Source: Norana najaformis (taxonomy: Eukaryota > Annelida > Clitellata > Crassiclitellata > Hormogastridae). Taken from it: a stretch of DNA of 64,000 bases. Each line of letters begins with the position of its first letter. The first letter of the stretch is position 1. Where the stretch lies: the NCBI GenBank assembly GCA_964023275.1, contig OZ029914.1:47880530-47944529 (forward strand), read 5' to 3'. Made by a program: the position numbers and the translations under genes. The notes beneath the pieces were generated by a model, which made no database searches, was not told the DNA's origin, and saw only the letters and a program-made list of their open reading frames with translations. Shown piece after piece: positions 499 through 63,352 of this stretch.

Positions 499-831
499 CT
501 GTCTCGTCACACATTGCATCTGTCGTTTGGTTTTCCACTGCTCCAAGAAGCTCAGTGGTAGTAAACGGAGATAGAGTAGATTTGAATTGCAGTATTAATG
601 GAGACCGCTCGGTAGAATGGAAGTTCACTTCATGGAATACATCTAATGAAACACGCATTTATTTGGGCAGAGGTGTAGTTGAGTTTATGAGATCAAGATA
701 CACGATTTATGAGAATATCACCGGACAACGCAATCTCATCATCAATTCCGTTGATATGGCTCACGCTGGAAGATACCGATGCCATGATGCTATTGGTGTG
801 GTTGAAGCTGCAGCGCAGTTAACGGTTTTAG
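499..831 (+). CDS. Gene A exon: Ig domain 1 (V-like)
   Basis: Acceptor tatttcag, donor G|gtaact, phase 1-1. About 111 codons with the Ig landmarks: Cys in DLNCS, Trp in VEWKF, and SVDMAHAGRYRC, a variant of the D-x-G-x-Y-x-C signature, then the G strand AAAQLTVLG. Two N-glycosylation sequons (NTS, NIT). By eye 55-60% identical to the matching exon of gene B, with SVDMAHAGRY and QLTVLG invariant. Confidence 0.9.
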
Positions 832-1477
832 GTAACTTGAAATTAATAATTGTGGTAAATAAATATGTGTTACGTTTCCAATTTCAAATGGCAAATTCTA
901 AAACTGAAGGCTGTTCTGTTTCACTGGGACAAGACTGGAAGTGATTCTGATTAAATCCCTTATAGTGGTGCTACATGCTACATAAATTATGGGTCAGTAT
1001 TATGTTACATTATATTATGTGGATGTGAACACCGGACGTAGAAGTGAACGGTCAACTTGTTCAGCATGGTCCTCACTTTATATCTATACTAATAAGATTT
1101 CGAACCGTTAGTGTATGTGGTTACTGTTCATGACTGACATCTACAAGACTCAAATCTTTGACAGTTAGTTACATGTGCCTTTAAAACGTTACATTTCTTC
1201 CCTAGACATCATCTCACGATTGACTTCCTCACTATTCCAACAAACTAACCTATGAAGCTAAGGGACTAAGCCACATCCAGAATTTTGGCTCATGTCCTAA
1301 ACGTGTATGAAATGTTTAATGTATATTTGACTGAATATTACAAAAATAATCAACGAAATGCGACACTACAAAAATAATCTACGTTTACCTGATTATATTT
1401 TTATATGATGTTAGGTTGCCCTGTCTTTTGCGTTGTTAGTTCTGCTTGGTAAAATACCGTTTTATTCTATTAGTCCT

Positions 1478-1697
1478 GCGTGGGACGCGGTGGTTTAATG
1501 GTATGTCCGGTGCCTCGTAACCGGAGGGTCGCGGGTTCGAATCTGCCTCAAGCCACTGCGTAGCGATCTTGGACAAGTTGCTCACCCGCAATTGTCTGTG
1601 AGGAAGGCAACGGGAAACCACCTCACTCATCTTATCCCCGGGTGGCATAAAGCCAACGGACCTGCGTTCGGGTAGAGAACTCGTCATCATCATCTAT
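1478..1697 (+). repeat. tRNA-derived SINE, family S2
   Basis: A tRNA-like head (A-box-like tggtttaatggt, B box GGTTCGAATC at about 1532-1541) is followed by an unrelated body (ggcaacgggaaaccacctc) and a tail of TCATCATCATC. Another copy lies on the minus strand at about 10800-10920 with the same tail. Confidence 0.7.
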
Positions 1698-2407
1698 TAT
1701 TTTTATGCTTGCCTATAACACGCAGATATTTATGGACGCTTGTTCAGCAAAATGTACTTTCTTGGCAAATTCTTATTCCCGCTTTTATTAGTATTCCCGT
1801 TTCACCCTTTCGCTCTCTCCTCTCTTTGTCTCTCATTCGCAATTTCTCCCTCCCCTTTTCCATCTCCCCTCTTCAATCTCCCCTCATCATCCCTGGCCTC
1901 TCCCTCTCCAGCCGCCCTCATTTACATCTATAAAATCCCCTTTTCCTTCCGTTTATCTTTCCCTCTAGATCTTTATGTACTCATTCATTCTCCTCTGCCT
2001 AGCATAGGCCTATATTGGGATAAAAGCTTACATCTGCTGATCAATCAGCTAATTAGACCTAATATCATTTAATATGCAGGCTTTGTCGCAACCGGACCCA
2101 TTGCGTACCTAAAGCTTTTATTATATAGATTTGCGGGTAGACTGAGTGGAATATAAAACCTAGAAGAAATAGTAGCAACGGCCTGTATCACTCATGAGGC
2201 TATTTCACTTTATATTTTAGAACAGACAATTTTGTGTATAACCTAGTCTCAAAACTACTCGCCAGACTGCTTGATTTTCTCAAAGTATTTCTATTTTTAT
2301 TCAACATTTTCCGCGAGTGAACTCATACGCGTTTTATTAAAGCGCGCTGTTTAACGCCTGTTGAAATTTATTTATGAAATCCGAGCTAAGCAGTGTGATG
2401 AATTTTG

Positions 2408-2552
2408 AGCACGGCTGCTGATTGGCTATAGTGTTCGGCTTGTAAATCGGAGAGCACTTGTTCGAGCCTCCCTGAGACGGTTATTGTGTAGGAACCTTGA
2501 GCAATTCCTTCACTCACAATTGCTCAGCGCCTAATGCCATCGACTAATGCTT
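2408..2552 (+). repeat. tRNA-derived SINE, family S1
   Basis: Degraded tRNA head with B box GTTCGAGCCTC, then a body with ggaaccttgagcaa and ttcactcacaattgctcagcgcc. The body is shared with copies at 10026, 17600 (minus), 35045 (minus) and 59597. Confidence 0.7.
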
Positions 2553-2672
2553 TTTGTCAGTAAGAGTGATCAAATCCACAGAATTAATGTAGACTAAAGT
2601 GTTTGCCTATTGCCTACTCTTTTAGCCTTTAGTCCAATTGTTTATTTTCCTGGCCTAAAATGAAACTTTTAG

Positions 2673-2975
2673 ATTCTGATCCGGAGTGTGGTGCAAACGT
2701 CAGCAGTACAGATGGTACTCTGTTGATGTGGTGCCGTATCACATATACTGGAAATATGATTCCCATCTTCAGATGGACAAAGGACAACACACAGGACGCA
2801 AACTCAACTACTTCAGACAATGGCACAGTACCGTTCACCACAACTTCCTCAGTCATCCCGCAACTGAGCTCCAATGACAGTGGCGTTACGTTCAAATGCA
2901 ATATTACATTTCGGCTGCCAAATTACTCTAACGAAAGTGTTCCAGATTACGAATACTCGTGGAATTACACGCTGC
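2673..2975 (+). CDS. Gene A exon: Ig domain 2 (CD80-like C2 type)
   Basis: Acceptor aacttttag, donor C|gtaagc, phase 1-1. Landmarks are MWCRITYTG (first Cys), FRWTK (Trp) and SNDSGVTFKCNI (second Cys), ending in VPDYEYSWNYTL. This pattern resembles the CD80-like C2 domains of nectin and CADM-type receptors; family assignment is from pattern only. Several N-glycosylation sequons. The exon of gene B at 38570-38908 is clearly homologous. Confidence 0.88.
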
Positions 2976-3736
2976 GTAAGCAAGCCTCTTAACTATGTAC
3001 AATGGTCGTTTTGGCTCATATACATCACAAAGGTTTAACGTAGAATTAAGGTAACTGTGTAGACTCTTCTTAACAGACTGCTTTCGCGACTGAAAAACGA
3101 TTGCCCTAAAAACACAAACACAATTTCAGCTGTGTGAAAAAACAGCATACCTTTTCTATATGCAAAGTAATACTATTTATTTACTCTTACTGAAAGGATG
3201 AGGGTTGACTAAACCAATTAATACCGATCTGCTTAAGTACTCTGTGCTTTCCATTTTCATATTCATGGATCAAAACCTCCATATCAGTAGGTCAGTCAAT
3301 GACAAAGAACTGATGAAACCTTATACAGCAATCAGAGATATCTGTCTATTGGTCTTTTCTGTACTTATCTTGGCCAGTAAAGTAACTGACCAAGAACCCA
3401 TCTCTAGTTTTCTTCGCTGAACAGGTCATTTAGTTTTACGAAAATTTTCGTATAAATTTGTTTATTTATTTAGTGTTTGCACCCATTACGACTTCTTATT
3501 GTTATAACAATTTCTTTACTAGCATTCTTTCAAGATATAGTTTCGAATTTATTTGAAACCCAGTAGCCTATTTTAAGATGAATAACTCAGATGCCAATAT
3601 ACTCACAGTAGCTGCATTTCAAGACTTGCATACAACTATTTGATGCCCAGTGTAATGATCTAGGATGCAGCAATGCTGTCATCTACGGCATGTTGGCCTA
3701 TAGGAACCTCGAACTGTAATTAAGAGTTCATTTCAG

Positions 3737-3955
3737 ATGGTCCGAGGAACATTATCATCGTTAGAAATGAAGGTCGTCTCATATGTTCAGCTGATGGCAA
3801 TCCAATTCCAACCTACATATGGACGCATGTTGAGACAAACACTTCCACAGTGGGACCTGTCTTTGAACTGAATGCCAAATACGCCACAGAACGAACACTC
3901 CGGTGCACAGCTGTTAATGCAGTAGCCTCTGACAATACAAATATCACAGTTCCAG
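3737..3955 (+). CDS. Gene A exon: Ig domain 3 (I type)
   Basis: Acceptor tttcag, donor G|gttggc, phase 1-1. Contains RLICSADGNPIPTYIWTHVE and RTLRCTAVNAVA, the usual C-x-A-x-G-x-P-x-P ... W ... C-x-A-x-N layout of Ig_3/I-set domains. The unusual gttggc donor is the same in gene B. Short C and D receptors lack this domain. Confidence 0.88.
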
Positions 3956-4193
3956 GTTGGCATATTTTAATATGGCATTTCTATTTTTATAAGCTTTGTT
4001 TCATAACGGTACTTGCTTAATAGCGGTGCAACAGCGTCAGGAAGGTCTGTGCTGGAAATAGGGAAGAGAGAACGCAGGTCTTTGCCGTGAGCCGAACTGA
4101 TGAACCATCAAATTGCGCCATATAAATCATGACTTGCTAATTTTAATGACCTTGTCATCATACAGCGTTGCTGTAGGTAGACATTTAGTAGTA

Positions 4194-4862
4194 GACATTT
4201 GTTAACACGTCATGTGTCCATCGGCTGAGCGAGGAATCGTAGGCGATTCCTATAGGTGATTGTTGCTAAGTCCCAGTAGGTTCTATAAGAACATTTGCCC
4301 TATATGTTTTTTTGTTTGGTTGTAGGAACTGGTTTCTTATAGTTTAACAGGGTCTTCAAAATAGTTATGTCATCAGCCATTATTTTTAGCATCATGTGTA
4401 ATATGTTTTCAAATTTCTTGCACGAAGATTTTTTCGTGCTGCCACGCTTATTGATTTGGTTCTTGCTCCATTGTGAACTTCCATTTTGAGCTTGGCTGCC
4501 TGTCATCTCCAGAATCACTTACAATATAGCTTTCCTTACACGTGAGACTCTCTCAACCGATCAATTTGTTTATCTGTCATCGGCCTTACAGTACTATCAG
4601 CCATCCAGATCTCTGCGTTCGGCTACACACAACCATTTGCCTCTTTCTGACATTACAGATAATGGGTCCGAATTCTCCAGAAGCGGGTTCAGCAGTTCTA
4701 CAGCAATCATCTGGAGCCGTTTCCCTGTTTGCCACTCACAACAGTGTCTCGATAGACATATTCGTAAAGCGGCTTATGACCTATTTGTACCGTATTGCTT
4801 TTGTTGTCTGACTACGCCTACTATTCCTCGCTCAGCCGATACATAGCGTGTTAACAAATGTC
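4194..4862. mobile_element. Non-autonomous DNA element with about 50-bp inverted ends
   Basis: The left end (gacatttgttaacacg ... gctgagcgaggaatcg) is repeated inverted at 4815-4862 (cctcgctcagccgat ... gtgttaacaaatgtc). The 669-bp interior has no convincing protein. It sits in the intron between Ig3 and the membrane exon and is absent from the same intron of gene B. A related end occurs at about 63500-63557. Target duplication is unclear. Confidence 0.7.
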
Positions 4863-5140: not shown

Positions 5141-5266
5141 GTGTTGTTACAACTTCTGGTCTCTCGGTTCAACTCCTCATTGTAGTTGCTGCGATTGCAG
5201 GATCGATCCTCTTTCTTCTCATAATAATTATTTTCTCATGTGTTGTTCACAGGAAGAAGCTGAAAG
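5141..5266 (+). CDS. Gene A exon: transmembrane segment
   Basis: Acceptor tgttttag, donor G|gttttt, phase 1-1. Encodes a stalk (GVVTTSG), a helix of about 24 residues (LLIVVAAIAGSILFLLIIII) and the basic stop-transfer HRKKLK. The exon of gene B at 42163 shares the IIIxxSCVVHRK end. No charged residue lies in the helix. Confidence 0.88.
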
Positions 5267-5748: not shown

Positions 5749-5802
5749 GTAATACAAGCGATCGGCCTGACGTCGCTTTAGATACGGATATCTGTTCATA
5801 CG
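5749..5802 (+). CDS. Gene A exon: 54-nt cytoplasmic exon
   Basis: Acceptor tatttttag, donor G|gttcga, symmetric phase 1-1. Encodes NTSDRPDVALDTDICSY. The matching exon in gene B keeps TSDRPDVALDTD. The donor is weak; read-through would add a short tail and stop within about 15 codons, so alternative ends are possible. Confidence 0.7.
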
Positions 5803-6419
5803 GTTCGAGTCAATTCCTAACGAATTCATACATATTTTTGTTTCTTTAAGATATCTTTTTTTGTGTTTGTATGCTCGTGATGAGTTCACTTTCATAGTTG
5901 TTAAATAGTAATGCTTTCAACTTTTAGTTCTTTACCTTTATTTGGCTTATTTGTCTATCTAATTACCTAATGGTTATTAAAGCAAAACTACTTTCTATTT
6001 CTATAATTGCAATAGGTCAAGTGACCATTAGCAGGACACGAAAAACGATCTTGTCTTATGCCAAAACGTTGTTCTAACAGTGCAGCATTTCTATGGTGCA
6101 CAAATTTCAACAACCAGAATGTGAGCTGTTATTTTTAGAAATCGCCTGTCTCCAAACAAATGCTTTCCTGAATGCTACTTGTAGGCTAATTTAAAATCCA
6201 TTAGGCCCCTAATACAGCATTAAGCTCCTTTAGTGCAACTTTAAGCTCCTGTAGTGCAACTTTAAGCTCCTGTAATGCAACTCTGAGTTCCGGTAATGCA
6301 ACTCTACTCGTGCGGGACGGATGTGCACAGGTTGAGTCTGTTGGCACAGAACAGGGGACAGTGGAGATCTACAGTGAGGCATGCGATCGACACCAACGGG
6401 CGATGAGTCCATGGACTCA

Positions 6420-6775
6420 AAGAAGACGAAGTAGAAGAAGAATAAGGGGAAGAGGAAGCGGAAGAACAAGAACAAGAAGAACAAGATCAAGAAGAACAAG
6501 AAGAACAAGAACAAGAAGAACAAGAACAAGAAGAACAAGAAGAACAAGAACAAGAAGAACAAGAACAAGAAGAACAAGAACAAGAAGAACAAGAACAAAA
6601 AGAACAAGAACAAGAAGAACAAGAACAAGAAGAACAAGAACAAGAAGAACAAGAACAAGAACAAGAAGAACAAGAACAAGAAGAACAAGAACAAGAAGAG
6701 CAAGAACAAGAAGAACAAGAACAAGAAGAACTAGAAGAACATAAACAAGAAGAACAAAAACAAGAACAAGACTGT
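6420..6775. repeat. 15-bp minisatellite, purine-rich with regular C
   Basis: About 350 bp of units close to AAGAAGAACAAGAAC, with slippage variants, lie in the long intron of gene A. Open frames through it (Arg-Thr on +, Ser-Cys and Phe-Leu on -) are products of the repeat, not genes. The matching intron of gene B lacks it. Confidence 0.9.
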
Positions 6776-7074
6776 AAGATACGGTGTTGTAACATTAAGC
6801 TCCGATTATCCAAATTTACGCTCCAGTAAGTAAACTTTAAGCTTCAGGAATGCAATTAGGTTCAGAAAATGCAACACGTAACACGGGTAAGTTTCCGGAA
6901 ACTCAGCTTTAAGCCTCGGAAATGCAACATAAGTACTGGTAATACAATTTAAGCAATTGCGTAGTACCTAGTTCAATTCATAATGAAGTACGGAAAGACC
7001 CAATTGAGTAGTCTAGTTCTGGGGATGGAATGGACAGGGCCTATCAGAGGGGGCAGCAGGGCCATTTGGCTTAA

Positions 7075-9925: not shown

Positions 9926-9985
9926 AATCTAACGACCGTATGATTGATGAGAATGTGGTTTACGCCGAAGTCAAGAAGCCAAAGG
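9926..9985 (+). CDS. Gene A exon: ITIM-bearing 60-nt cytoplasmic exon
   Basis: Acceptor tttaatag, donor G|gttcgt, symmetric phase 1-1. Encodes ESNDRMIDENVVYAEVKKPK. VVYAEV fits the ITIM consensus (V/I/L/S-x-Y-x-x-V/I/L). Gene B has NLVYAEVKKPK in the same place. The weak donor would permit read-through to a nearby stop (KGSCVT). Confidence 0.85.
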
Positions 9986-11944: not shown

Positions 11945-12022
11945 GAACAAAAGGAAAGAGAGCCACAAATGACCAACCATCTGCAAATTATTCAGATGTC
12001 AAGAAGAAAGTGAACGTCAATG
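11945..12022 (+). CDS. Gene A exon: YSDV cytoplasmic exon
   Basis: Acceptor gctacag, donor G|gtaatc, symmetric phase 1-1, 78 nt. Encodes TKGKRATNDQPSANYSDVKK and then KVNVN. YSDV is a Y-x-x-V motif but lacks a hydrophobic residue at -2, so it is not a strict ITIM. Gene B has AIYSDVKKKVNVN in an 81-nt exon. Confidence 0.85.
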
Positions 12023-14601: not shown

Positions 14602-14763
14602 AATCTCATTGGAGCCGACGGAACAGTGTATGCCGATTTCAGTGGAGCGAAACAGCCTGCCAACAAAGCGCAGACATCAAAGCCGCCTATGTTCAGTCAG
14701 GTGGAAGTCTACGCATCGATTGATCACAACGGAAGGGCTGTACCAATTCCGCCACAATTGTAG
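14602..14763 (+). CDS. Gene A terminal exon: two tyrosine motifs
   Basis: Acceptor ttctttag, phase 0, stop TAG at 14761-14763. Encodes NLIGADGTVYADFSGAKQ ... FSQVEVYASIDHNGRAVPIP and ends PPQL. TVYADF and EVYASI are Y-x-x-hydrophobic motifs 27 residues apart, too far for an ITAM. About 75% identical to the terminal exon of gene B. Candidate polyadenylation signal at 14785. Confidence 0.9.
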   Translation, partial: NLIGADGTVYADFSGAKQPANKAQTSKPPMFSQVEVYASIDHNGRAVPIPPQL

Positions 14764-19960: not shown

Positions 19961-21207
19961 TGGTTCTAACAGATTTTTTGTCTCTGAACCACGTAAAACC
20001 CTAGTTATGTTATGCTAAGTTTCGTTGGAAGATGAATTGAACACCAACGGCCCTTGCAACCATAAGCTATTGTTCAAAATGAACATCGTACTTTGTAAGT
20101 TATCCTTTCAAGGCAGCTGAAGCAGATTTGCATACATAGGGCCTATATTGTATTTAGCTCTTTATGATTTCTGACTGTTTTGTGTTTAAATAGGTTTTCC
20201 AAGGAAATGTCTGTTTTAAAGAAGAATCTGATATCTTTTCGAGATATACTGTGCATTTGTGCCATGTTACACTCCAATCCAAGCTTTAACAAATGTAAGT
20301 CATTAAGAAAGTTGTGAGGAACATTAGATTTTGAACTGCTCTTTAGGTTGTTATTAGTTTCACAATCATTGCCTCATTACTAAACAACTGTCTACTTGGA
20401 AACTATCTGCCGGGTTCATGCATAAAGGGAGTTCCCACACAAATTGAGATGCTGGACATGACATCATTTGTTCCTAAAATATTCATCTGAAATTAACTGA
20501 AAAACCTAAGACAATAAAGAAAGGGAGAGAAGAAGTCGGTTGAAAATGAAGGGCCAGAAGTGGCAGGTATGCAAGGGGATGAAGTAGGTTGTGGCAGGAA
20601 GTGTAAAATTTAACACTACTAAATAAAGAAGGCAGCAAAGTTACATACTTTATTGCTTATTTTCATGAAAATTTCTTTAACATTATTGCATATTTATTAT
20701 GCATCTCTTTCAGCTGTGGTATTCAGGTGCATGATCCTGGTGATATGTGGATGATATTAAAGCTGAGCCACAAAGCTGCACAGTGTAACAAATGGACACC
20801 CTTTCCTTTGGGGATGCATTATTCACAAATGTTCAAGCTTTCCATTGTATGTCAGAGTTGATGTAGACTTGGTGTTGCTTGTCATGACAGATAAATAAAA
20901 TAGGTTAATTGTAGGAAGGTCGACAACCTCTGATCTTTTTTCGTTGTTTACAGGATTTAGGATTTTGTTATTTACCGCTTCATGTGCATGTGTTTGTGTG
21001 CTTCGTATGCAACATTTCCTTGATTTGTTGCAAGTTTTTGGAATTTTGCTGGAGTACATACTTCCTTGTCATTCTCTGTTTACAGTCACTCCTCTTTTTC
21101 TCAATTCTGCAGATGAAAACTGAACCCTTGCAAGGTTCTGAACAGGAAGTTCCTGGTTGCTCTGTGCTTCGTGACAAAATGTAGAATTAGTCTTTGACCT
21201 TGGTGAT

Positions 21208-21782: not shown

Positions 21783-22097
21783 GTGTTGAGTGTACACTGG
21801 TTGTAAAGCCACAGAATGTGGCTGCTGTGAGTGGAGAAAGAGTTACGTTAAAATGTGCTTCAGATGTCTCTAAAGGAAACGTAGCATGGAGTACTCTTAA
21901 CCCCGGATCGTCTGACAAAGACTATATTTATATTGGAGGTTCCTTGGGTCCGAGTGTTTCTTCATATATTTCAGTTTCTGAGAAAGATGATGGAAGCTGC
22001 AGTTTGCATGTCAATACTTCAACAACAGCTGCTAAAAGGTATATTTGTGCAGAACGTGACTCTGGAGTTGAGGCCAGTGCAGAATTAATCGTTCTGA
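21783..22097 (+). CDS. Gene C exon: Ig domain 1 (V-like)
   Basis: Acceptor gttttgcag, donor A|gtaaga, phase 1-1. Landmarks: VTLKCASD (Cys), VAWST (Trp), AAKRYICAE (second Cys), SAELIVL (G strand). An extra Cys in GSCSLHV. About 55% identical by eye to the first Ig exon of gene D. Confidence 0.88.
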
Positions 22098-23074: not shown

Positions 23075-23380
23075 AGAACCATGCAGAGTGTAACTACGAC
23101 AATAAAACAGCCATTGTAACCTGTTTTGCAACATTTCTTGGAAACTGGGCTCCAAATCTGGAATGTGAACAATGGGATGATGCCAATAATTATTCAAAGA
23201 AGATTGTCTTAGAGGGAACTAAAACCAATGCAGTTAACAATAACTTGGTAACCAGTACCTGGACTTACACTGGTAAGAATGCAGAGTATGATATCTACTG
23301 TTCAATGGAGTTTGAGAAATCTGAAAGACCTACAGAGACAAGTGCAACAAATGCTCCAAACTACTATCACCCAATACTTG
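23075..23380 (+). CDS. Gene C exon: Ig domain 2 (C2-like)
   Basis: Acceptor cttgacag, donor G|gtcaga, phase 1-1. Contains AIVTCFATFLGNWAPNLECE, then TSTWTYTG and YDIYCSMEF, ending NAPNYYHPILG. The pattern C ... W ... C with GNWAPxxE is shared with gene D and recalls TGNMIPIFRW of gene A. Confidence 0.85.
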
Positions 23381-24209: not shown

Positions 24210-24357
24210 CACCGACTCAACCTGCCAAGAGTGATGCTATGACTACTCCTGGAAGCTTCAGGCCTAATCCAGATGGTGTTATTGTATCGATCATCCTAAA
24301 TGTTCTGCTGCTCGTCGCTGCAGCGCTGATTCTTCTGTTTATTTTGAGAAAATTAAT
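24210..24357 (+). CDS. Gene C exon: stalk and transmembrane helix
   Basis: Acceptor atatag, phase 1-2, with donor gttagt. An alternative acceptor (tcaaag at about 24195) keeps the same frame. Encodes the stalk PTQPAKSDAMTTPGSFRPNP and the helix VIVSIILNVLLLVAAALILL followed by FILRKL. No basic residue in the helix, so no direct DAP12-type charge pairing is suggested. Confidence 0.8.
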
Positions 24358-36304: not shown

Positions 36305-36350
36305 ATGTCACTCGTTTATGTCTTATGCTTGGCAATCGCTTTTTTCATTG
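36305..36350 (+). CDS. Gene B exon 1: signal peptide
   Basis: ATG at 36305 begins MSLVYVLCLAIAFFI, then a split Val codon with donor G|gtgagt, phase 1. A hydrophobic core without charges is right for a secretion signal. The phase fits the next exon. Confidence 0.8.
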
Positions 36351-37375: not shown

Positions 37376-37693
37376 TTGTCTCATCAAGCATTTCGTCTGT
37401 CGTATCATTGTTGACTGTTCCGGAAAGTTCAGTCATAGTTATCGAAAAAGGAGTAGAATTGAAATGCAGTGCATCTGAAAACGAGTCGGTGATATGGTCG
37501 TTTACTTCATGGAATTCGTCATTAGAAACAAACATTTATTGGGATAGGAACATAACTACGTCGATGAGAACAAGGTACAAGATTGGCCAGCATAATCTCA
37601 TCATCGATTCCGTTGATATGGCTCACGCCGGAAGATACCAATGTATTACAGTTATCCCTTCAGTAAAAGCTACAGCTCAATTAACAGTTTTAG
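37376..37693 (+). CDS. Gene B exon: Ig domain 1 (V-like)
   Basis: Acceptor gtgtttcag, donor G|gtaaat, phase 1-1. Landmarks VELKCSAS, VIWSFTSWN, SVDMAHAGRYQC and TAQLTVLG. Four residues shorter than gene A around the E-F turn. Confidence 0.9.
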
Positions 37694-38569: not shown

Positions 38570-38908
38570 CTTCTGATCCGGTTTGCGACGCCAATGCCAG
38601 CAAAGAACATAACGACAAAATGGAGCTACTTTGGATTTGGTGTCGCATCAGCTATACGGGATACATGAATCCCATCTTTAATTGGACCAAAAGCAATTCC
38701 TCGAAAAGCTATACACAGTACGACATCGCTGCAAACGTAACCACTTCTGGCAACCGTGCAGTACCGTTGACTACAACTTCCTCATTCATCACGCAACTGC
38801 ACTCTGATGACAAAGGAGTTATGTTCAAATGCAAGATTACATTTCAGTTGCCAAACAACACTGTAGGAAATGTTCCCGATTACGAGTACACGTGGAATTA
38901 TACTCTGT
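38570..38908 (+). CDS. Gene B exon: Ig domain 2 (CD80-like C2 type)
   Basis: Acceptor aacttttag, donor T|gtaagc, phase 1-1. Landmarks WIWCRISYTGYMNPIFNWTK, DDKGVMFKCKI and VPDYEYTWNYTL. Twelve codons longer than in gene A, mostly between the C and E strands. Several N-glycosylation sequons. Confidence 0.88.
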
Positions 38909-39652: not shown

Positions 39653-39877
39653 ATGGTACGAGAAATTTAACCATCGTTAGGTATGAAGATCGTCTTGAAT
39701 GTTTGGCGGATGGCAATCCAACTCCAACCTACAGGTGGACACATGTTGAGACAAACACATCCATAGTGGGACCTGTTTTTATGCTGAATGCTACAGTTAC
39801 ATACGACAGAGAACACATTTTTCAGTGCACAGCTACTAATATATTTGCCGATGAGAATAAAAATACCACAGTCCAAG
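39653..39877 (+). CDS. Gene B exon: Ig domain 3 (I type)
   Basis: Acceptor tttcag, donor G|gttggc, phase 1-1. Contains RLECLADGNPTPTYRWTHVE and IFQCTATNIFA. THVETNTS and VGPVF are invariant relative to gene A. Confidence 0.88.
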
Positions 39878-42162: not shown

Positions 42163-42279
42163 ATTCTGGTAGAATCTTAGATCACTTCCATATTCCAGCT
42201 TCTGTGATTGGAGGATCTCTTCTCTTGCTTTTGATAATAATTATTGTTTCATGTGTTGTTCACAGGAAGAGGCGGAAAG
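42163..42279 (+). CDS. Gene B exon: transmembrane segment
   Basis: Acceptor ttgttgcag, donor G|gtttct, phase 1-1. Helix IPASVIGGSLLLLLIIIIVS followed by CVVHRKRRK. The stalk differs from gene A but the inner end is nearly identical. Confidence 0.88.
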
Positions 42280-42790: not shown

Positions 42791-42844
42791 ATGGTACAAG
42801 CGATCGACCTGATGTTGCTTTAGATACGGATCTTAATACATACG
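42791..42844 (+). CDS. Gene B exon: 54-nt cytoplasmic exon
   Basis: Acceptor ctattttcag, donor G|gttgga, symmetric phase 1-1. Encodes GTSDRPDVALDTDLNTY. Same length and core as in gene A, which supports it as a real exon despite the weak donor. Confidence 0.78.
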
Positions 42845-44282: not shown

Positions 44283-44342
44283 GATCCGACGACTGTATGA
44301 TTGCGGAGAATCTGGTTTATGCCGAAGTTAAGAAGCCAAAGG
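44283..44342 (+). CDS. Gene B exon: ITIM-bearing 60-nt cytoplasmic exon
   Basis: Acceptor ctttaacag, donor G|gttcgt, symmetric phase 1-1. Encodes SDDCMIAENLVYAEVKKPK. LVYAEV fits the ITIM consensus. Same length as in gene A. Read-through would add GSYATGNASIC and stop. Confidence 0.87.
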
Positions 44343-45764: not shown

Positions 45765-45845
45765 GAACAAGAGAAGGAAAGAGAGCCATAAATGACGAAC
45801 CAACTGCAATTTATTCTGATGTCAAGAAGAAAGTGAACGTCAATG
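45765..45845 (+). CDS. Gene B exon: YSDV cytoplasmic exon
   Basis: Acceptor tttctacag, donor G|gtaatc, symmetric phase 1-1, 81 nt. Encodes TREGKRAINDEPTAIYSDVK then KKVNVN. One codon longer than in gene A. Confidence 0.86.
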
Positions 45846-46215: not shown

Positions 46216-46856
46216 CAGATGCAGAGAAGCAGTGAGACAAACACAGAGCCCGCATCGTCAGTGGGTTTTTCTCGAAGCCTCACATCATTAAACAACACTG
46301 AAAATAATTGGAGCTCATCTTAACTCCGGTTTAACTCAATATCCTTAGTTGGTGCTTATAGTGCGTGGTTAGTACATGCAGACTATTTTGCTTTCAAGTA
46401 CATGCACACGGAACACATATAGCCTATAGCAAGTAATAATGAGAAATGGCACTTTTAGATAGAAAGTTTCCTTTTGAAAGTAAAATATCGTACTAATAGG
46501 TAGAAGTCTGCGTTATTCATTCGAAATAGCGCAAAATTTTACTGTTCAAACTGTTCATGCGTTCCAATTGTCTGCGACTCATTGTTCATTCACCCACGTA
46601 GAGCGATGGTCACGAAGAATGCATTGGCTCTGCTTCCGTAGTTTACATAATATGTAATGTAATGAAACGTAATATATATACATACATACATATATATATG
46701 TATATGGATATTGTTATTGCAATGGATCAATTCCATCTGACATCTCACATGGTAAACAAATTTACAAAAATTGAAAAAATGAAGACTTATTTTTACCTAA
46801 GTAACCTGCGCTTTTGAGGTTAACTTACAAATTAGCATGATAGAAATGCATGAGTA

Positions 46857-46881
46857 ATAATAAAAATAATAATAATGGGCC

Positions 46882-46969
<88 letters not shown>

Positions 46970-46995
46970 GGCCCAAAAATTATAATATTAGGCCC

Positions 46996-47031
<36 letters not shown>

Positions 47032-47035
47032 TAAA
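46857..47035. repeat. AAT trinucleotide repeat
   Basis: Two blocks of AAT repeat (about 46885-46968 and 46995-47030) separated by gggccc-containing spacers. An all-isoleucine frame through it is an artefact. Gene A has only short AAT tracts at 12885-12925. Confidence 0.95.
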
Positions 47036-47470
47036 TTATAAAACTAAATATAGAAAAAATATAATATAATATTTATAATACTAATTCAATAGTAATAAAA
47101 ATAAATAAATAAATAAAATATAAAAATAATATCAGTTTAAGTGTATAGTAACTATGATAGATAACACGGCATAACAGTATAACACTGTGTAATAACAATA
47201 ACAAGAATAGCAATACTAAATATCAATTTGTTCAACACTTTCATTAAATGATTCCACCATGATATCGTTGTTTGAATTGTTAATTTGAATTGTTACGGTG
47301 TAACTGTTAAACAGCTTTCAAATCTGACGAGCAGAAAAGAAGTATAACCGGTTTGAAGTTTCGATGGATTCTTCAGTTAATAGAACCAAATGTATGCCAT
47401 CGGAAATGTTTCCGATCGTTGTTACAAGTATTCAGTTAATTTAATTGTATTTCGTTCTCTATCGTGTCAG

Positions 47471-48664: not shown

Positions 48665-48826
48665 AATCGCATTGGAGCGGACGGAACAGTGTATGCCGAT
48701 CTGAGTGGAGTGAGACAGCCTGCTAATACAGCACAGTCTGCATCACCGCCTGTCTTCAGTCGGGTGGAGGTCTATGCGTCCATTGATCACAACGGAAGAG
48801 CTCCACCACCCCCGCCAAAATTGTAG
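48665..48826 (+). CDS. Gene B terminal exon: two tyrosine motifs and proline run
   Basis: Acceptor tttttttag, phase 0, stop TAG at 48824-48826. Encodes NRIGADGTVYADLSGVRQ ... FSRVEVYASIDHNGRAP and ends PPPPKL. TVYADL resembles an ITSM; EVYASI is a plain Y-x-x-I. The proline run might bind SH3 or EVH1 domains. Confidence 0.9.
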   Translation, partial: NRIGADGTVYADLSGVRQPANTAQSASPPVFSRVEVYASIDHNGRAPPPPPKL

Positions 48827-54656: not shown

Positions 54657-54968
54657 GTGTTCATTGTGCACTGATTGTTAAACCCGAAAATGTTGCCGCT
54701 ATGAATGGTGAAGCTGTATCTCTAAGCTGCGCCTCAGATTCAGAAGAAAGTGTGGCTTGGGTTGCCTACAGTCCTGGATCACCGGAAAGAGAATATATAT
54801 TTAGTGGACGAGTCTTATCTCCCAGCTTTTCTTCATACATTTCATTTTCTCAGGAACAAAGAGGGCACTGCAGTTTACAAATCAATGTTACAAGAAAAGC
54901 TGCCAAGCGGTACTTGTGTGTAGAACAAGGATCTGCGACAGACGCTAGTGCTGATCTGATAGTTTTGG
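54657..54968 (+). CDS. Gene D exon: Ig domain 1 (V-like)
   Basis: Acceptor cgtaacag, donor G|gtaact, phase 1-1. Landmarks VSLSCASD, VAWVAY, AAKRYLCVE, SADLIVLG, with an extra Cys in GHCSLQI as in gene C. Confidence 0.88.
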
Positions 54969-55079
54969 GTAACTCAGTTCATTATTAATCAATTTTATTG
55001 TAAATGTTCCTGTTGTTTCAGTGTTCATCAAATGTTTCATCGATGATTGCGGAAATCCAAATTCAGTTTAGTCCAACTA

Positions 55080-55500: not shown

Positions 55501-55812
55501 AAAAGAGTCCAGAGTGCTTTTCGAAACTCACAGATACATCCGTTAATATAACGTGTTCTGTGAAGTTCGCTGGAAACTGGGCTCCCATCATGGAATGGAA
55601 AACACATCAAAACCAAAAACTGGAAGTGGAACTGTTTTCTTCTCACAGTGATTTAGTAACGAGTCACCTATTTCTACCACTGAATTTGACAAGAAACGAC
55701 ACAGCATATAAAATAAACGTTATCACAAAGTTTAGTGATTCCGGAAGGCCTCAACAGACAAGTGCAATCAATATTCCGGAATACAACCACACCATTTCAC
55801 CATATGTGTCTG
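55501..55812 (+). CDS. Gene D exon: Ig domain 2, second cysteine absent
   Basis: Acceptor atgttaacag, donor G|gttaga, phase 1-1. Contains NITCSVKFAGNWAPIMEWKT and NDTAYKINVITKF. The position of the F-strand Cys (YCSM in gene C) is Val here, so the canonical disulfide cannot form. The frame is open and splice sites are present, so this does not look like a dead exon. Confidence 0.83.
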
Positions 55813-56696: not shown

Positions 56697-58319
56697 CTAA
56701 TCGCCCATCATGTTGGAATTGCAGTGGCCCTGATATCTTGCTTCAAAGGTGGAGATGTCTTGATGGAATCTCTGTCCATGCTCATCGCTTACATCACCCA
56801 AGTTTGGTGGGAAAAAATCCAGATGGGAATGTAAGAAATGTATTTTTAGTGACACCCGGCAGCCGAGTTGCTTATATGCTGTTAGCATGTTGCTAACGAG
56901 TTCAGCATAGTTGTCAGCTCGGTGATTCCCAAGGAAGTTTTGCACCACCAACGTACATGCATCCCTAGCGGCAAATTCCAGTGGGTTGAGCTTGGTTCTA
57001 AATACAGTATCACGCATTAGTTCGCGGATTTCTGGCCCAATAAAAATTCCAGCCTTCAGCTTAGCATCAGTTTTGACGGCTCCAAATTTATCTCTCAGAT
57101 ACTGGAAGCCTTGTCCAGTACGATCCATTGCCACTACGAAATTCCTCATGAGGCCCAGTTTAATGTGAAGTGGTGGTAAGTACACTTTCAATGGATCAAC
57201 CAATGGTTCGCGTTGCACGTTGTGCCGACCAACAATGTGCTCAGATCTAGGAGGCCACAGTTTCAGTTTGTAATGGTTGCTGTCATCACGACTGTTCCAC
57301 AAGCACAAAAAGCACATATGTTTTGTGTACCCCAGCTGTAGGCCTAGAATAAGTGCTACCACTTTGAGGTCCGCACAGATGTTCCATTTGTGGTCTGAGT
57401 AGTTGATCACTTTCAAAATGAGTTTCATTGAATCATATGTCTCTTTGAGGCCTACAGCGTGGGCTATAGGAACAGACGGCTTTTCGTTACCATTGTGCAC
57501 CAACACAGCTTTCAAGCTCGCTTGGCTGGAATCTATGAACAGTCTCCACTGATCAGGAACGTATTCGCAACCTAAATTCAGCATGAGACCGTTCACGTCA
57601 GTACAGAAGCAGATATCATTTTCCAGTTTGTAATATGTAGCTAACTGTTTGTGACGATAACGGAAGTGTGATGTTGTGGTACCTTTTTGAAGCAAGTTCC
57701 ACTCCCCTAGTCTGGAGGCTAACAGTTCAGATTTCTCCTTTGACAAAGATAGGTTCCTCACCAGATCATCTAACTCACCTTTCCTTATCAAATGCGGCCT
57801 ACCCTCTTCCAAATCTTGATCACTGGATTCATAAACAGTAACGTCATCTTCTGTATTACCATCAGAACTGTCCGTTTCATCAGCACCCGCAGCAGGCGGA
57901 AATGGTACTGGATTCTCTTCATCATGCGGCACTGGCTTTAGAGCGGATTTGCAATCAGGACAAACGATTTTAGACTTATTTTTCTTTGAGAATCCAGCAA
58001 CTTTAGTAATGCAGAAATAACAGTCTGCATGATGATTTCTTGGCTCGCGCCACACCATAGGCACAGCAAACGGCATTGAATTCCTTTCGCCAGTCAGCCA
58101 CTGTGTAAGCCCAGAGTAGCACACGGTGCAGCAGACATGAGGTGCCCAACTTTTATCCTCGTCTCCGATTTGACATCCAAAATAATACTTGTAAGCAATC
58201 ACCACTCTCTTAGTTAACTCCTTGCGCTGGTCACAAAGAGTATATTTACCACAAACATAGCAAAAATTGTCTGGACGGTTAACACAACCTCGCCTATTCA
58301 TTTCAAAATTAAATCTCAC
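56697..58319 (-). CDS. Putative transposase-like protein, uncharacterised family
   Basis: 540 codons, intronless. N-terminal cysteine clusters (CYVCGKYTLC near 20-29; CCTVC near 65-69; CYFC and CPDC near 100-125) suggest zinc binding. An acidic linker (about 140-175) follows. The conserved core has LKAVLVHNGNEKPSVPIAHA, ICADLKVVALILGLQLGYTK, HMCFLCLW, PLHIKLGLMRNFV, KIHFLHSHLDFFP and SDEHGQRFHQDI. I recall similar unnamed, often multi-copy proteins in aphids, hydra and other invertebrates, with no known function. The acidic residues in CADLK, HSHLD and SDEHG are candidate catalytic positions (inference). It ends GD-TAG at 56697-56699; the frame continues CWFLQRATAATHKRN... to TGA at 56628, and in relatives I remember Tyr-Cys-Trp here, so the last 23 codons look cut off by a nonsense change. 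Confidence 0.72.
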   Translation of the reverse strand: MRFNFEMNRRGCVNRPDNFCYVCGKYTLCDQRKELTKRVVIAYKYYFGCQIGDEDKSWAPHVCCTVCYSGLTQWLTGERNSMPFAVPMVWREPRNHHADCYFCITKVAGFSKKNKSKIVCPDCKSALKPVPHDEENPVPFPPAAGADETDSSDGNTEDDVTVYESSDQDLEEGRPHLIRKGELDDLVRNLSLSKEKSELLASRLGEWNLLQKGTTTSHFRYRHKQLATYYKLENDICFCTDVNGLMLNLGCEYVPDQWRLFIDSSQASLKAVLVHNGNEKPSVPIAHAVGLKETYDSMKLILKVINYSDHKWNICADLKVVALILGLQLGYTKHMCFLCLWNSRDDSNHYKLKLWPPRSEHIVGRHNVQREPLVDPLKVYLPPLHIKLGLMRNFVVAMDRTGQGFQYLRDKFGAVKTDAKLKAGIFIGPEIRELMRDTVFRTKLNPLEFAARDACTLVVQNFLGNHRADNYAELVSNMLTAYKQLGCRVSLKIHFLHSHLDFFPPNLGDVSDEHGQRFHQDISTFEARYQGHCNSNMMGD

Positions 58320-58380
58320 ACACTAGCTACAGCTATATAAGAAAACTTCACCTTCGTTCTACGCAATCTCGCCTTATATA
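58320..58380 (-). promoter_or_regulatory. Candidate TATA-type promoter of the transposon gene
   Basis: On the minus strand ttatatagc lies about 20 bases before the start codon region of the 540-codon gene. Weak evidence from sequence alone. Confidence 0.3.
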
Positions 58381-58880: not shown

Positions 58881-58983
58881 AGCACAGCGGTATATGCCAC
58901 GCTGACCACGCTGTAATTGTCCTGAGTGTTGTGGTTGTCATCCTCATCATTGGAATTGCTGTTTTAAGTTTTATTGTACTAAA
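58881..58983 (+). CDS. Gene D exon: transmembrane helix
   Basis: Acceptor caaattacag, strong donor gtaagt, phase 1-2. Encodes EHSGICHADH then the helix AVIVLSVVVVILIIGIAVLS and FIVLK. The phase 1-2 pattern is the same as the membrane exon of gene C, which supports common descent. Confidence 0.83.
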
Positions 58984-59596
58984 GTAAGTATAAAGTCTTT
59001 TCATATCGTATGACCGTAATCATACATTTATATAGCGAATTTCCAAGACGTTACATCGCAAAACGAAGACCAAACCAAATTGTTTTTCAATACATGAGAA
59101 AATAGAATCAAAGAAAGACCACGCTGCTTGGCAAAACCTTCCAGAATGATCAGCCGGGCCCTGCAACACCTTCTATTTTGCGTTATGGGAGTTCGAGCCA
59201 AAGGAACAGCTACTGTATACTGAAGAGAGAAGATATATGCGACCTAGGCATGATTGCCGCATGAATGATAAAAAATGTATACTCACAATAAATTGCATTA
59301 CATTACATTACATCACATTGCAGGTGTCTCATGTTAGCCCTCAGCACGAAAAAATGGCCGAAATTTTTAAATGGCAAAATATAGTTATTGGTAATATTTC
59401 AAGCTGTGACTTGACTGCCTCAATGTTTTCATCCGAGGTTTTACTCAGTGATCGTTGTTAGAAGTCTTGCACATAATCATCAAGGAAATTCAATAATTAG
59501 ATTAGAATTGAACTCCCTTTAAAAAATAACGCTTTTCAAACTCTCTTTAAAACGTTCAGAACTCCTTTAAAAATAATGCACGGTAGCCTCTGACTG

Positions 59597-59745
59597 AGGC
59601 GCGGTAGGTTATTGGATAGAGCGCTAGGCTTGTAACGCCTAAAATACGGGTTCGAGTCTCCTCTGAGACAGTTACTGTGTAGTAGTGACCTTGAGCAAGT
59701 CGTTCACTCACAACTGCTCGGCGCCATCGATTGACGCAAAATCAT
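59597..59745 (+). repeat. tRNA-derived SINE, family S1
   Basis: Well preserved head: gaggcgcggtaggttattgg, atagagcgctaggcttgtaacg, B box GGGTTCGAGTCTC; body gtgaccttgagcaagtcgttc; then cggcgccatcgattgacgc. It faces the 3' end of the adjacent LINE. Confidence 0.8.
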
Positions 59746-59760
59746 TAGATAGTCACCTTG

Positions 59761-60140
59761 TCACCTTGTGCTGTCAGCTCTTTGAGCTCTAGCGACCGTC
59801 ATGATCAATCTTCTCCATTTCTTTCTTTCCAGTGTCGCGTCCCTTAGTTGTGCCAAGTTCATTCCAGTTGCTTCGTGTATCTTGTCCATCCATTTTTTCC
59901 TTGGTCTCCCTTGTTTTCTTTTTCCCTCTCCACAAGCCAGCATCATTTCTTTTTCCAATCCATCTGATCTCATAACATGTCCAAAGAACCTCAGCTTTGA
60001 TTTTAGCACTGTTTGTTGTAGCGTCTCATCTTGCTCAATTCCAATCGCCCTGCGTACCCATTCATTAGTCCTTTTCTCCGTCCATGATGTTCTCAGCATC
60101 TTCCTCCATATCCACATTTCACAAGCATTGATTTTTTCGC
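59761..60140 (-). pseudogene. LINE reverse-transcriptase C-terminal region
   Basis: Continues in another frame with INACEMWIWRKMLRTSWTEK, KLRFFGHVMRSDGLEKEMML and GRPRKKWMDKIHEATGMNLA, ending ADSTR. Same motif order as other RTE elements. Confidence 0.88.
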
Positions 60141-60980
60141 TATTTTCTTGGTCATTGTCCACGTCTCACTGCCGTATGTTACTGTTGGTATAATCAAGGC
60201 CCTCACCAATCTTTTTTTCGTGTCTGTGCTCACATGTTTGTCTTTCCATATTTTGTCTAGTCCATTCATTGCGGCTGTTCCAATCGCCACCCTTCGGTTT
60301 ATTTCCATATCGCACTTTCCTTCTCTTTCTACTACTGATCCCAAGAATGTAAAGCTTGTTACCGTCTCTAATTCCTCTCCATCCACCACAAAACTGCCCT
60401 CCTCAGCTGTTGTCATGATCTTCGTTTTCTTTATATTGAAGTATAGTCCTGCTTTCTCGCTCTCTCTCTTCAGCCTTCTTATCAGTTCTACCAGATCTGT
60501 TTTTTTACCTGCTAATAGTGTTGTGTCATCTGCGTATCTCAGATTATTCAGTGTTCTTCCCGCTATCTTTACTCCCTCTTTTGCTCCATCCATTTCCGCC
60601 ATCCTCATTATCCTTTCTGCATATAGGTTAAATAGGAATGGGGACAGAATGCATCCCTGCCTCACTCCTTTCTTTATTTTGATTCTTTCAGTATCTCCAA
60701 ATTCAGTTCTTATTACCGCAATCTGTTCTTCGTACAATCCCTTAAGAAGTTGTATCAAGTGCCTTGGTATTCCCATTTCTATTAAGGTTTTCCACATCAA
60801 CTCATGATCAATGCAATCGAATGCCTTACTATAGTCAATGAAGCATATGTATAATTTTTGTCCATACTCCTTTTGTCTCTCCATTATCCACCGCATATTG
60901 GCGATATGATCACGAGTTCCGCGGGATTTCCTAAATCCTGCTTGGTTATCTGGAAGCTCCCTCTCTATTATGTTCTCCAT
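60093..60980 (-). pseudogene. LINE reverse-transcriptase core
   Basis: 295 codons directly after the in-frame stop and in the same frame. Carries AFDCIDHE, RQGCILSP and the YADD active site. The frame is lost near 60135, beside a run of A. Confidence 0.9.
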
Positions 60981-60983
60981 TCT

Positions 60984-62612
60984 TTAATGTATTATTTTAA
61001 GTAGTATTTTACTTATGTGCGATATCATTGCTATGGTCCTGTAGTTTTCACACTCTCTCGCATCTCCTTTTTTGAATATAGGGATAAAGATTGAGCTCTT
61101 CCAATCCTCTGGCCATTTTCCGGTTGTCCATATGATATTGCACATTTTTGTTATTGTATTTGTCATTGCGCCATCTCCTGCTTTTACCATTTCTATGGGT
61201 ATCCCATCCGAACCCGGTGCTTTATTGTCCTTCAGTTGTCTAATTGCCCATTCCACCTCTGCTTCCAAAACGTCCGGTTCCTTTTCATGTTCTGATGTAT
61301 CGATTCGTTCTTTCATTACTCTCCTATCTTCACTGTACAGCTCCTCTGTGTATTCTTTCCATCTGTTCTTCATTTCCTCTTCGTCTGCGATTATGTGTCC
61401 ATCCCTTGACCTCATTGATCCCATTCTTGGTGTGAATTTTCTCGTTATTTCCCTCACTTTTGAAAACATTTCTTTAGTTCTTCCTTTCTTTCCCTCTTCC
61501 TCCATTTCCTTGCACATTGCATTTAGATGTTTTTCCTTGTCTATACATGCTTGCTTTTGGAATGCTCTATTCATTTCTCGTACCTTGTTTTTGTCTCCTT
61601 CTTTTTTTGCCTCCTTTCTTTCTACAGCTATGTTGATAGCGTCCTTCGAGAGCCACGGAGTTGTTGTGACTTTCTTTTTCTTCGGAATGTGTTTCTCAGC
61701 AGTTTCTAGTATTATTCCCTTCACCTTCTCCCACAGGTGGTTCGTGTCCTCATCTATCATCGTCTCGTCCCTCTCTAATATTTCAAACCTATTCCTTATT
61801 TCCGTTCTGTATTCCGGTGTAATTCCTTTGCAGTCATACGTGTTCAGTCTTTCTCCTTTTTTCAATTTCTTCAATTTCGTTTGCACTGTTGCCACTAATA
61901 ATTCATGATCAGTTCCACAATCCGCGCCTGGTCTCGTTCTTACATCCCTTATCGTGCTTTTCCATCTTTTGTTTATCAGTATGTAATCTATCTGATTCCG
62001 ATGTTTCCCATCTGGTGACGTCCAAGTGTACAGTCTTCTTTTTGGCTGTTCAAACCATGTATTCATTATTCCCAAGTTGTTCCCATCGCAAAACTCTACT
62101 AATCTTTCTCCTGCCTCATTTTGTTCTCCTAGTCCATGACCTCCAATCGTGTCCCCTGCTCCTCCGACGTTCTTTCCCACCTTCGCATTGAAGTCACCAA
62201 TGACCATTATTACATCTCCCTTAGGGATTCTATCTATTGTACTTTGCAGCTCAATGTAGAACTTTTCATGCTCTTCTTCTTTTGCTATCGATGTTGGTGC
62301 GTACACCTGTACAATTGTTATGTTAACTTTCCTTCCCCGAAATCTTACGCTCAGTATTCTGTCACTCACCGTGTCATATCCCATTATTGCATTTGCACTT
62401 GTCTGATCACACATGACTGCCACCCCATTTCTTCCTTTTTCCTCCTGCCCTGACATTATTATCTTATAACCATTCCAATTAAAATGTCCTTGTCCTTTCC
62501 ACCTTGTCTCGCTTAATCCCATGACTGATATTTCGAGTCGCTTCATCTCTCTCTGTATGACATCCATCTTTCCGCTCTGCATACTACGCACATTCCACGT
62601 GCCTATCTTCAT
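60984..62612 (-). CDS. LINE endonuclease and N-terminal reverse-transcriptase part
   Basis: 542 codons from the presumed natural start. Apurinic-type endonuclease in about residues 1-235 (catalytic E in SETRW, D in GDFNAK, H in TDHELL), then the linker and the first reverse-transcriptase blocks DNKAPGSDGIPIEMVKAG and CENYRTIAMISHISKILLKI. It stops at a TAA that interrupts the frame; the following codons stay in the same frame. Confidence 0.9.
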   Translation of the reverse strand: MKIGTWNVRSMQSGKMDVIQREMKRLEISVMGLSETRWKGQGHFNWNGYKIIMSGQEEKGRNGVAVMCDQTSANAIMGYDTVSDRILSVRFRGRKVNITIVQVYAPTSIAKEEEHEKFYIELQSTIDRIPKGDVIMVIGDFNAKVGKNVGGAGDTIGGHGLGEQNEAGERLVEFCDGNNLGIMNTWFEQPKRRLYTWTSPDGKHRNQIDYILINKRWKSTIRDVRTRPGADCGTDHELLVATVQTKLKKLKKGERLNTYDCKGITPEYRTEIRNRFEILERDETMIDEDTNHLWEKVKGIILETAEKHIPKKKKVTTTPWLSKDAINIAVERKEAKKEGDKNKVREMNRAFQKQACIDKEKHLNAMCKEMEEEGKKGRTKEMFSKVREITRKFTPRMGSMRSRDGHIIADEEEMKNRWKEYTEELYSEDRRVMKERIDTSEHEKEPDVLEAEVEWAIRQLKDNKAPGSDGIPIEMVKAGDGAMTNTITKMCNIIWTTGKWPEDWKSSIFIPIFKKGDARECENYRTIAMISHISKILLKIIH

Positions 62613-63222
62613 CTTCTTCTTGCAGCTCAGGTTGAGTCTTTGCTTTCTGGTGCTTAAATAACAATAATATCAATAACTTTCTTCTAATGGTGAAGGATCA
62701 GATTTGATACAATTATCATCATCCGACTAACACATATAGGCTGGCGCAGTAGGTTGAGACGCGGTGTACGCTGAGACACGCAGACTTGCCTCCTGAAACA
62801 AGCATCAGGCTGAGACTCGCTGTCTTTGACAGTAAGTAAGCAAGTCGACGCCTTGACTGAAGACAGAAGTGCAGAAGACGAGACCGAGGCAGAATCACAC
62901 AGTCGAGAAGGAGATAACGGCGCAGAAGATTTGATACGAGAAGAAGGCTGCGATGGAGACGGAGTGGTCGAATCAAGAAGGTGGTCTGACGGTGAGGAGA
63001 ACTAATGCTGCTGTAGCGAGACTGGCGTCCTTCTAAGTAAAGAAATTAAACTGTGACATCGCCCGAGCGTGCCATTCTCTTAAGTCTCCATGCAGACAGA
63101 TCGCTGAAGCCTTATCCACGTCTAGGGAGAGTTAGCAGTTTATTGGCTTTCTTTCAATTTCTTTTAGTGTTTCAGTTTTATTATTGGAATTTTTAATTTT
63201 GTTCTTTGTTTTTATTTGACAG

Positions 63223-63352
63223 ACGCCAGTCGCTTTCACGTCATTCAGAAAATGGTAATAACACGAAAGACTCTTTATCAACCAATCAACCAGCTTACAA
63301 GTCATCTTCCCCTAACTGTTGTGCTCCCCCTTCAGCCTTAGAACTGACGTGA
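63223..63352 (+). CDS. Gene D terminal exon: cytoplasmic tail
   Basis: Acceptor tttatttgacag, phase 2, stop TGA at 63350-63352. Encodes KRQSLSRHSENGNNTKDSLS, TNQPAYKSSS and PNCCAPPSALELT (first Lys split). RxxS sites could be kinase targets; a CC pair could be lipidated. An internal donor-like site (AATG|gtaata) would allow a shorter version, recalling the micro-exon of gene C. Confidence 0.78.

Follow-up and report, generated by a model that had tools for sequence, protein, structure and literature searches.

A large tandem family of short and long immunoglobulin-type receptor genes with a putative inhibitory tail on the long member

The stretch of DNA analysed here (the window; 64,000 nucleotides, C2:47,880,530-47,944,529) lies on contig C2, 51.8 Mb long, in a genome of 608 Mb in 17 contigs. 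It contains four putative membrane receptor genes of the immunoglobulin (Ig) type, arranged head to tail on the plus strand: A (long), C (short), B (long) and D (short). This order had been given by a first-pass annotation of the window, and it holds. Each long gene possesses three Ig exons, one transmembrane exon and four tail exons (t1 to t4) in a single open frame, and each short gene two Ig exons, the domain numbers originally assigned. Genes A and B, which are duplicates, can be aligned over introns and exons alike (68-78% identity in the main collinear blocks). All four genes are members of a large tandem family, built of repeated modules in which a short gene is followed by a long gene and its tail exon.

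Gene A starts at 499, as annotated, where the splice acceptor ttcgtatttcag is located. Its Ig1 exon, of the V/I type (499..831), reaches 34.1 bits with Pfam Ig_3 (cut-off 30), and its Ig2 exon (2673..2975) 22.6 bits with Pfam ig (cut-off 21.8); splice sites are present for both. The Ig3 exon (3737..3955) is below the cut-off (Ig_3, E 1.7e-4) and is 65% identical to Ig3 of B. The transmembrane exon (5141..5266; open-frame model) ends in HRKKLK and shares 67% of 30 residues with that of B. The tail begins with t1 (5749..5802), which is kept in B and has a GTTCG donor as in the neighbouring long gene E. It continues with t2 (9926..9985) and t3 (11945..12009; 3' donor provisional), and closes with t4 (14602..14763), which contains two tyrosine motifs, a proline-rich end and the stop codon, and has at least 44 genome matches including itself.

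Gene B has a signal-peptide exon (MSLVYVLCLAIAFFI; 36305..36350), followed by Ig1 (37376..37693; Pfam ig and I-set over cut-off, splice sites), Ig2 (38570..38908; Ig_2, E 9e-4, below cut-off) and Ig3 (39653..39877; Ig_3, 27.6 bits, below the cut-off of 30). Next come the transmembrane exon (42163..42279), t1 (42791..42844), t2 (44283..44342), t3 (45765..45832; 3' donor again provisional) and t4 (48665..48826; with PPPPPK and the stop). Ig2, Ig3, the transmembrane exon, t1, t2 and t4 follow the open-frame model, and t2 and t4 were also recovered by genome search. Pfam recognises Ig domains in B taken as a whole, and over the cut-off in Ig1 and Ig2 of A. A phase-0 donor is available at the t3-t4 junction of A and B, and the t4 acceptor is in phase 0 in the 28 t4 exons, out of 30, that were read by eye. 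An extra exon between t3 and t4 was searched for and none was found. The transmembrane and tail part of B gave nothing meaningful against PDB sequences.

In gene C, a signal-peptide exon (20207..20294), resembling that of the upstream short gene S1 (MSV.KKN), precedes Ig1 (21783..22097; Ig_3 and V-set matches), Ig2 (23075..23380) and a transmembrane exon (24210..24357) similar to that of S1 (E 5.5e-5). Gene D consists of Ig1 (54657..54968), assigned by homology (55% identical to C Ig1), Ig2 (55501..55812; Pfam ig, E 0.0019) and a probable transmembrane exon (58881..58983), placed by a hydrophobic scan and splice sites only, without homology support. All Pfam matches of the C and D Ig domains are below cut-off. 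C Ig2 gives no Ig match and is assigned by homology to D Ig2 and to other short-gene Ig2 exons. For C Ig2 and the D exons, boundaries were placed by hand on the DNA sequence. Gene D had been drawn as far as 63352; its last supportable exon ends at 58983.

The absence of Lys and Arg from the C and D helices, as annotated, is confirmed. The small tails attributed to both genes are not: these exons end at splice donors (gttagt in C, gtaagt in D), so the tails continue in further exons. The donors are in phase 2 in C, D and the short gene S4; the S1 exon, in the reading made here, finishes either in phase 1 or with a stop codon. No convincing t4-type match was found within the window, either in the interval between C and B or in the stretch behind D. 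Likewise, tblastx among the short units, and against the 10 kb behind a short paralogue, revealed no tail exons.

Further units are numerous, both by tblastn in the flanks and genome-wide. Over 184 kb, long units were located at about -55, -46.6, -41.9, 67.4 (gene E) and 94 kb (gene F) on the scale of the window, and short units at -23.3 (S1), 83.5 (S4) and, inverted, 119.9 kb. The most distant long unit (L009, ~55 kb upstream of the window) has in-frame stops in its Ig exons and is apparently a pseudogene.

Signal-peptide-like exons are rare in these 184 kb: seven on the plus strand and one on the minus strand. Six of the seven are situated 0.1-3.7 kb upstream of the Ig1 exons of B, E, F, C and S1 (S1 having two), and the seventh is the transmembrane exon of F. 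For B, E and F the distance to the long Ig1 is 0.4-1.0 kb. Within the window, B and C have such an exon, and none was found for A or D. The possession of their own signal-peptide exons by B, E and F on one side and by C and S1 on the other is the chief indication that the short and the long genes are distinct, as they had been annotated, and this separation is supported at the level of predicted exons.

The tails of A and B each carry four tyrosine motifs, including one strict immunoreceptor tyrosine-based inhibition motif (ITIM), in agreement with the first-pass annotation. In A they are VVYAEV (t2), ANYSDV (t3), TVYADF and EVYASI (both t4); in B, LVYAEV, AIYSDV, TVYADL and EVYASI. Strict ITIMs among these are VVYAEV and LVYAEV only. 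The bare ITIM pattern carries little weight by itself, because its raw scan in the window produced well above 100 hits; the support for the tail motifs is conservation and not the pattern match. Between A and B, the ratio of nonsynonymous to synonymous substitution rates (dN/dS; point values, no significance computed) is 0.43 for t1, 0.29 for t2 (19 codons) and 0.35 for t4, and 0.56, 0.39 and 0.65 for Ig1, Ig2 and Ig3. In the genome search with t2, A and B are strong and the third match has E=8.7.

Among the 30 best of the 44 t4 exons, whose median identity in pairwise comparison is 43%, the second tyrosine is kept in all 30 and the first in 29 (one has Cys). The spacing of the two tyrosines is 25-30 residues, with 27 in 18 of the 30 exons. 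The pattern T.Y..[VILM] is present in 28 exons and the narrower TxYxx[VI] in 20, and PxxP occurs near the end in 26.

The genome-wide match counts are lower bounds, the lists obtained with short and long Ig1 overlap, and the tallies per contig were made by hand. The short Ig1 query gave at least 139 matches, 135 of them on C2. With long Ig1, 150 of 517 candidates were scored (136 on C2), and with short Ig2 150 of 428 (130 on C2). Long Ig3 gave at least 143 matches (125 on C2), and t4 at least 44 (42 on C2), 22 of these 44 with E below 0.003. On C2, the matches are concentrated towards the two ends (0.05-5.9 and 46.8-51.1 Mb), with further inner blocks, mainly at 10-17 and 37-44 Mb. As a control, none of the 150 scored matches to generic Ig_3 (2359 candidates) falls in the C2 cluster at 47.7-51 Mb. 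A literature search that did not extend to bioRxiv preprints or to the majority of subscription papers revealed no description of this cluster.

A smaller cluster on contig C4 (28.6-29.1 Mb) contains the same Ig1, Ig2 and Ig3 types and one weak tail-exon match (E 1.6). On C2, long-type Ig1 also occur in runs where short genes are scarce or absent and a tail exon was not detected, at 48.59-48.69 Mb (nine, minus strand) and 47.68-47.84 Mb; these may represent decoy, secreted or decayed forms.

The order of the units was analysed in C2:47.68-51.1 Mb, which contains 61 long Ig1, 41 short Ig1 and 21 tail exons, three of the latter weak (E above 0.01). A long Ig1 is located just upstream on the same strand for 18 of the 21 tails (shuffle mean 11.3, reached in 2 of 5000 shuffles), and a short followed by a long Ig1 for 16 (mean 4.6, reached in 0 of 5000). 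When the shuffling is confined to tail-bearing stretches, the latter order is seen in 16 of 20 (mean 4.8, highest 14, reached in 0 of 5000); without the three weak tails it is seen in 15 of 18 (0 of 5000). In the 16 units, short and long Ig1 are separated by 9.9-29.7 kb and the long Ig1 and its own tail exon by 7.3-14.1 kb. Two inverted units keep the same order. The inner parts of the genes are also regularly placed: a short Ig2 lies 0.7-6.1 kb downstream of 37 of the 41 short Ig1 (in 2000 random draws, mean 3.2 and maximum 12), and for 10 of 47 short Ig2 no short Ig1 is located upstream. A long Ig3 lies within 9 kb of 46 of the 61 long Ig1, and within 20 kb upstream of 17 of the 21 tails.

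The tandem pairs of the first-pass annotation are thus real as an alternation of long and short genes, but differently divided. Since the repeated module is short, long, tail exon, C is naturally paired with B, and D with gene E. The units A+C and B+D were rejected on this order, which includes the inverted units. Congruence of short-gene and long-gene trees would, by reasoning, fit both pairings.

A common ancestry of the long and short ectodomains had been proposed, with unrelatedness of C and D to A and B named as the result that would speak against it. In the Ig1 tree, where eight generic Ig domains from this genome serve as outgroup, one clade (99/99) unites the long and short domains, and within it the short Ig1 form a clade of their own (97/96). 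Five of six long Ig1 are placed in a weaker clade (86/86) and that of F is basal. The long rows of this tree comprise the long units found in the 184 kb except the one with stops, and the short rows combine the short units of that stretch with the next-best short Ig1 matches (L060 omitted), so neither is a random sample. The Ig2 tree, built without outgroup, shows a modest long/short split (75/79); the proposed ancestry holds for Ig1. Identity between A and B is 57% in Ig1, 57% in Ig2 and 65% in Ig3. Between A and the long unit at -41.9 kb (L010) it falls from 84% in Ig1 to about 61% in Ig2 and 52% in Ig3, which suggests domain exchange or gene conversion between units.

Other elements are interspersed with the receptor genes. 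Between the Ig2 and transmembrane exons of D, a frame of 541 amino acids (56697-58322, minus strand) has no Pfam match; it is probably a mobile element, and a related element is present downstream of S1. Behind D, frames typical of long interspersed nuclear elements occupy 60093-62669 (minus strand): the frame at 60984-62669 matches Exo_endo_phos (E 2e-13), and the adjoining one resembles a reverse transcriptase (read by eye). Long simple-sequence arrays at 6230-6840 and 46797-47043 read as charged or hydrophobic frames. An Rfam scan of the window gave 0 matches.

We consider it reasonably probable that the window is a slice of a huge tandem family of Ig receptors in which the long protein is an inhibitory chain, the short protein its partner, and the whole serves recognition. 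The family consists of germline-encoded receptors of two related types: a short type with a signal peptide, two Ig domains and a transmembrane helix, and a long type with a signal peptide, three Ig domains, a transmembrane helix and a multi-exon tail bearing several Y-x-x-hydrophobic motifs. It was amplified as modules, with the short gene 10-30 kb upstream of the long gene on the same strand. The long protein is most likely the signalling chain. Its t4 pair, an immunoreceptor tyrosine-based switch motif (ITSM)-like TxYxx[VIL] and a YxxI 25-30 residues apart, would upon phosphorylation recruit a phosphatase with tandem Src homology 2 (SH2) domains, of the SHP type. The strict ITIMs of A, B and some other genes would add to this recruitment, which would dampen cell activation, and the proline-rich end could be a Src homology 3 site. 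The short protein, for which no t4-type exon was found in the stretch read, would be a co-encoded recognition partner of the neighbouring long protein and not its activating twin. The role of such a diversified receptor set is most likely immune or self/non-self recognition. In this account the gene parts, the size of the family, the order within modules and the conservation of the tail are observed, and phosphorylation, recruitment of a phosphatase, the short-long partnership and the role are inferred.

The phosphatase assignment was made because a near-invariant tyrosine pair is found at a spacing like that of PD-1 and BTLA. In these two receptors, 25 residues separate ITIM and ITSM, a distance that, as its authors suggest, may let one SHP molecule bind both motifs (PMC8631942). 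By analogy, the t4 pair with its 25-30 residues would suit docking of a tandem-SH2 protein of this type.

Several observations weigh against this picture. The second t4 site is a strict ITIM in only 8 of the 30 exons; in the remaining 22, position -2 is occupied by Glu, Asp or Met. Higher dN/dS values were obtained for short exons of A and B (transmembrane 0.90; t3 1.52 on 21 codons), as well as for t2 between A and E (3.1 on 13 codons). At the t3-t4 junction, only a phase-1 donor is seen on the third tail exon of gene E. The cut-offs of the signal-peptide scan were set after the B and E candidates had been seen, and five of the ten Ig1 checked (M46, M41, A, D and S4) have no candidate. The tail exons of the short genes, not found by tblastx, leave room for an activating motif there. 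Moreover, five of the 21 tails break the short-long rule, no Ig3 was detected within 9 kb of 15 of the 61 long Ig1, and a tail exon lies within 25 kb of only 19 of the 61. Many long Ig1 lacking such neighbours may be fragments or possess other tails.

Y-x-x-hydrophobic motifs are also general sorting signals. The family could hence be one of cell adhesion or a neural identity code, its motifs serving other SH2 proteins or endocytic adaptors and not inhibition, an account that would gain from the scarcity of strict ITIMs in t4. The frequent TxYxx[VI], the near-invariant tyrosines at a distance of 25-30 residues and the strict ITIMs of A and B argue against it, and the large tandem expansion would be more in line with immune families; we regard it as rather unlikely. 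Less likely still are classic paired receptors, with an inhibitory long and an activating short member for the same or similar ligands, as in KIR, SIRP and CEACAM. Adjacent long and short genes, the common ancestry of Ig1 and an ITIM seen on long genes only would all be expected of them. However, the Ig1 of C and D are only 28-30% identical to that of A and belong to a separate clade, and the C and D helices offer no Lys or Arg, on genes whose tail exons were not found.

A single gene with five Ig domains, plus a short form derived from its first part, was likewise weighed and was rejected as the main reading because of the separate signal-peptide exons; it seems the least probable of the explanations considered. 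It fits the position of short genes upstream of long ones in the same orientation, seen in 16 of the 21 units with a tail, and Ig exons of phase 1-1 could be spliced together; an oyster receptor with five Ig domains, CgIgIT2, has been described (PMC11999971). Against it, the transmembrane exons of the short genes come before the long genes, and in C, D and S4 they end in phase 2, whereas the long Ig1 starts in phase 1; S1 is not uniform in this respect.

The preferred reading, an inhibitory long chain with a short recognition partner, can be carried further. Multiplication by dozens of receptor pairs with inhibitory tails is a hallmark of vertebrate innate lymphocyte recognition. It is conceivable, though for the present doubtful, that C2 as a whole encodes a complex of obligate short-long heterodimers with an inhibitory tail on the long chain, used combinatorially in innate recognition or allorecognition and evolved separately from that of vertebrates. 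If so, its size would be comparable to or above that of the vertebrate leukocyte receptor complex. In any case, short gene, long gene and tail exon form a defined module, in which partnership, ligand and signalling are directly testable.

Tandem Ig receptors with ITIM or ITSM tails are known from vertebrates as LILR, KIR, SIRP, Siglec and CEACAM. The best phmmer matches of A Ig1 in the PDB are LILRA6, LILRB3 and LILRB1, but these are weak (E 1e-4 to 4e-4) and extend over only 21-24 residues. A search of the whole genome for C1-set Ig domains gave a single weak match (31.5 bits) among 19 candidates, which argues against a jawed-vertebrate genome; the animal is probably not a jawed vertebrate, in line with the apparent invertebrate noted in the first-pass annotation. 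Pfam searches for molluscan haemocyanin (PF14830) and for glycoside hydrolase family 6 (PF01341) as a tunicate marker each gave 0 matches, but as their controls had no hits either, these zeros say nothing about absence; a FMRFamide-repeat query reached E 0.0026 at best, too weak to decide the group. An inhibitory member with an ITIM tail is common to the vertebrate paired receptors and to the window, where the strict ITIM is in t2 of A and B. The likeness to KIR, SIRP and PIR drawn by that annotation does not hold in the strict sense: the partners of classic pairs have very similar ligand-binding regions (PMC3533184), and an identity of about 30% between long and short Ig1 disfavours a KIR-like pairing on the same ligand.

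Among invertebrates, the oyster receptors CgIgIT and CgIgIT2 also combine Ig domains with a tail containing tyrosine motifs (PMC11999971). CgIgIT2 has five Ig domains; its motif is termed ITAM (immunoreceptor tyrosine-based activation motif) by that review and inhibitory in a title cited there, and the cited CgIgIT titles concern inhibition of antimicrobial or cytokine responses (PMC11999971). The available portion of the review mentions no paired tandem cluster. The Alr family of Hydractinia is another Ig superfamily of invertebrate allorecognition with ITIM and ITAM motifs (PMC12065747); in the portion of that source at hand, to whose description the comparison is confined, short/long modules are not mentioned.

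Compared by description and not by sequence, the closest precedent appears to be the fuhc locus of the colonial sea squirt Botryllus schlosseri, which would be a better model than KIR. There, FF genes adjoin FcoR genes and are expressed with them, the two being related multigene families encoded as neighbouring pairs (PMC12065747). FcoR proteins contain one V-type and two C2-type Ig domains, with a sushi domain between the two types, and a long tail with an ITIM, a hemITAM or the core Yxx[ILV]; for fester and uncle fester, the same source, as far as available, reports no known signalling domain (PMC12065747). The FF loci newly described there number more than 37, and the FcoR loci 53 (PMC12065747). 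A short-type gene beside a long ITIM-type partner is likewise found here, for 16 of the 21 tails. The long gene here has three Ig domains and, in contrast to FcoR, no sushi match was obtained in Pfam scans of ten window exons and of assembled B and C, which is why the window was not filed under FF/FcoR. If the present family is a second large case beside Botryllus, co-encoded Ig pairs with SHP-type tails would represent a recurrent solution for the recognition of variable targets.

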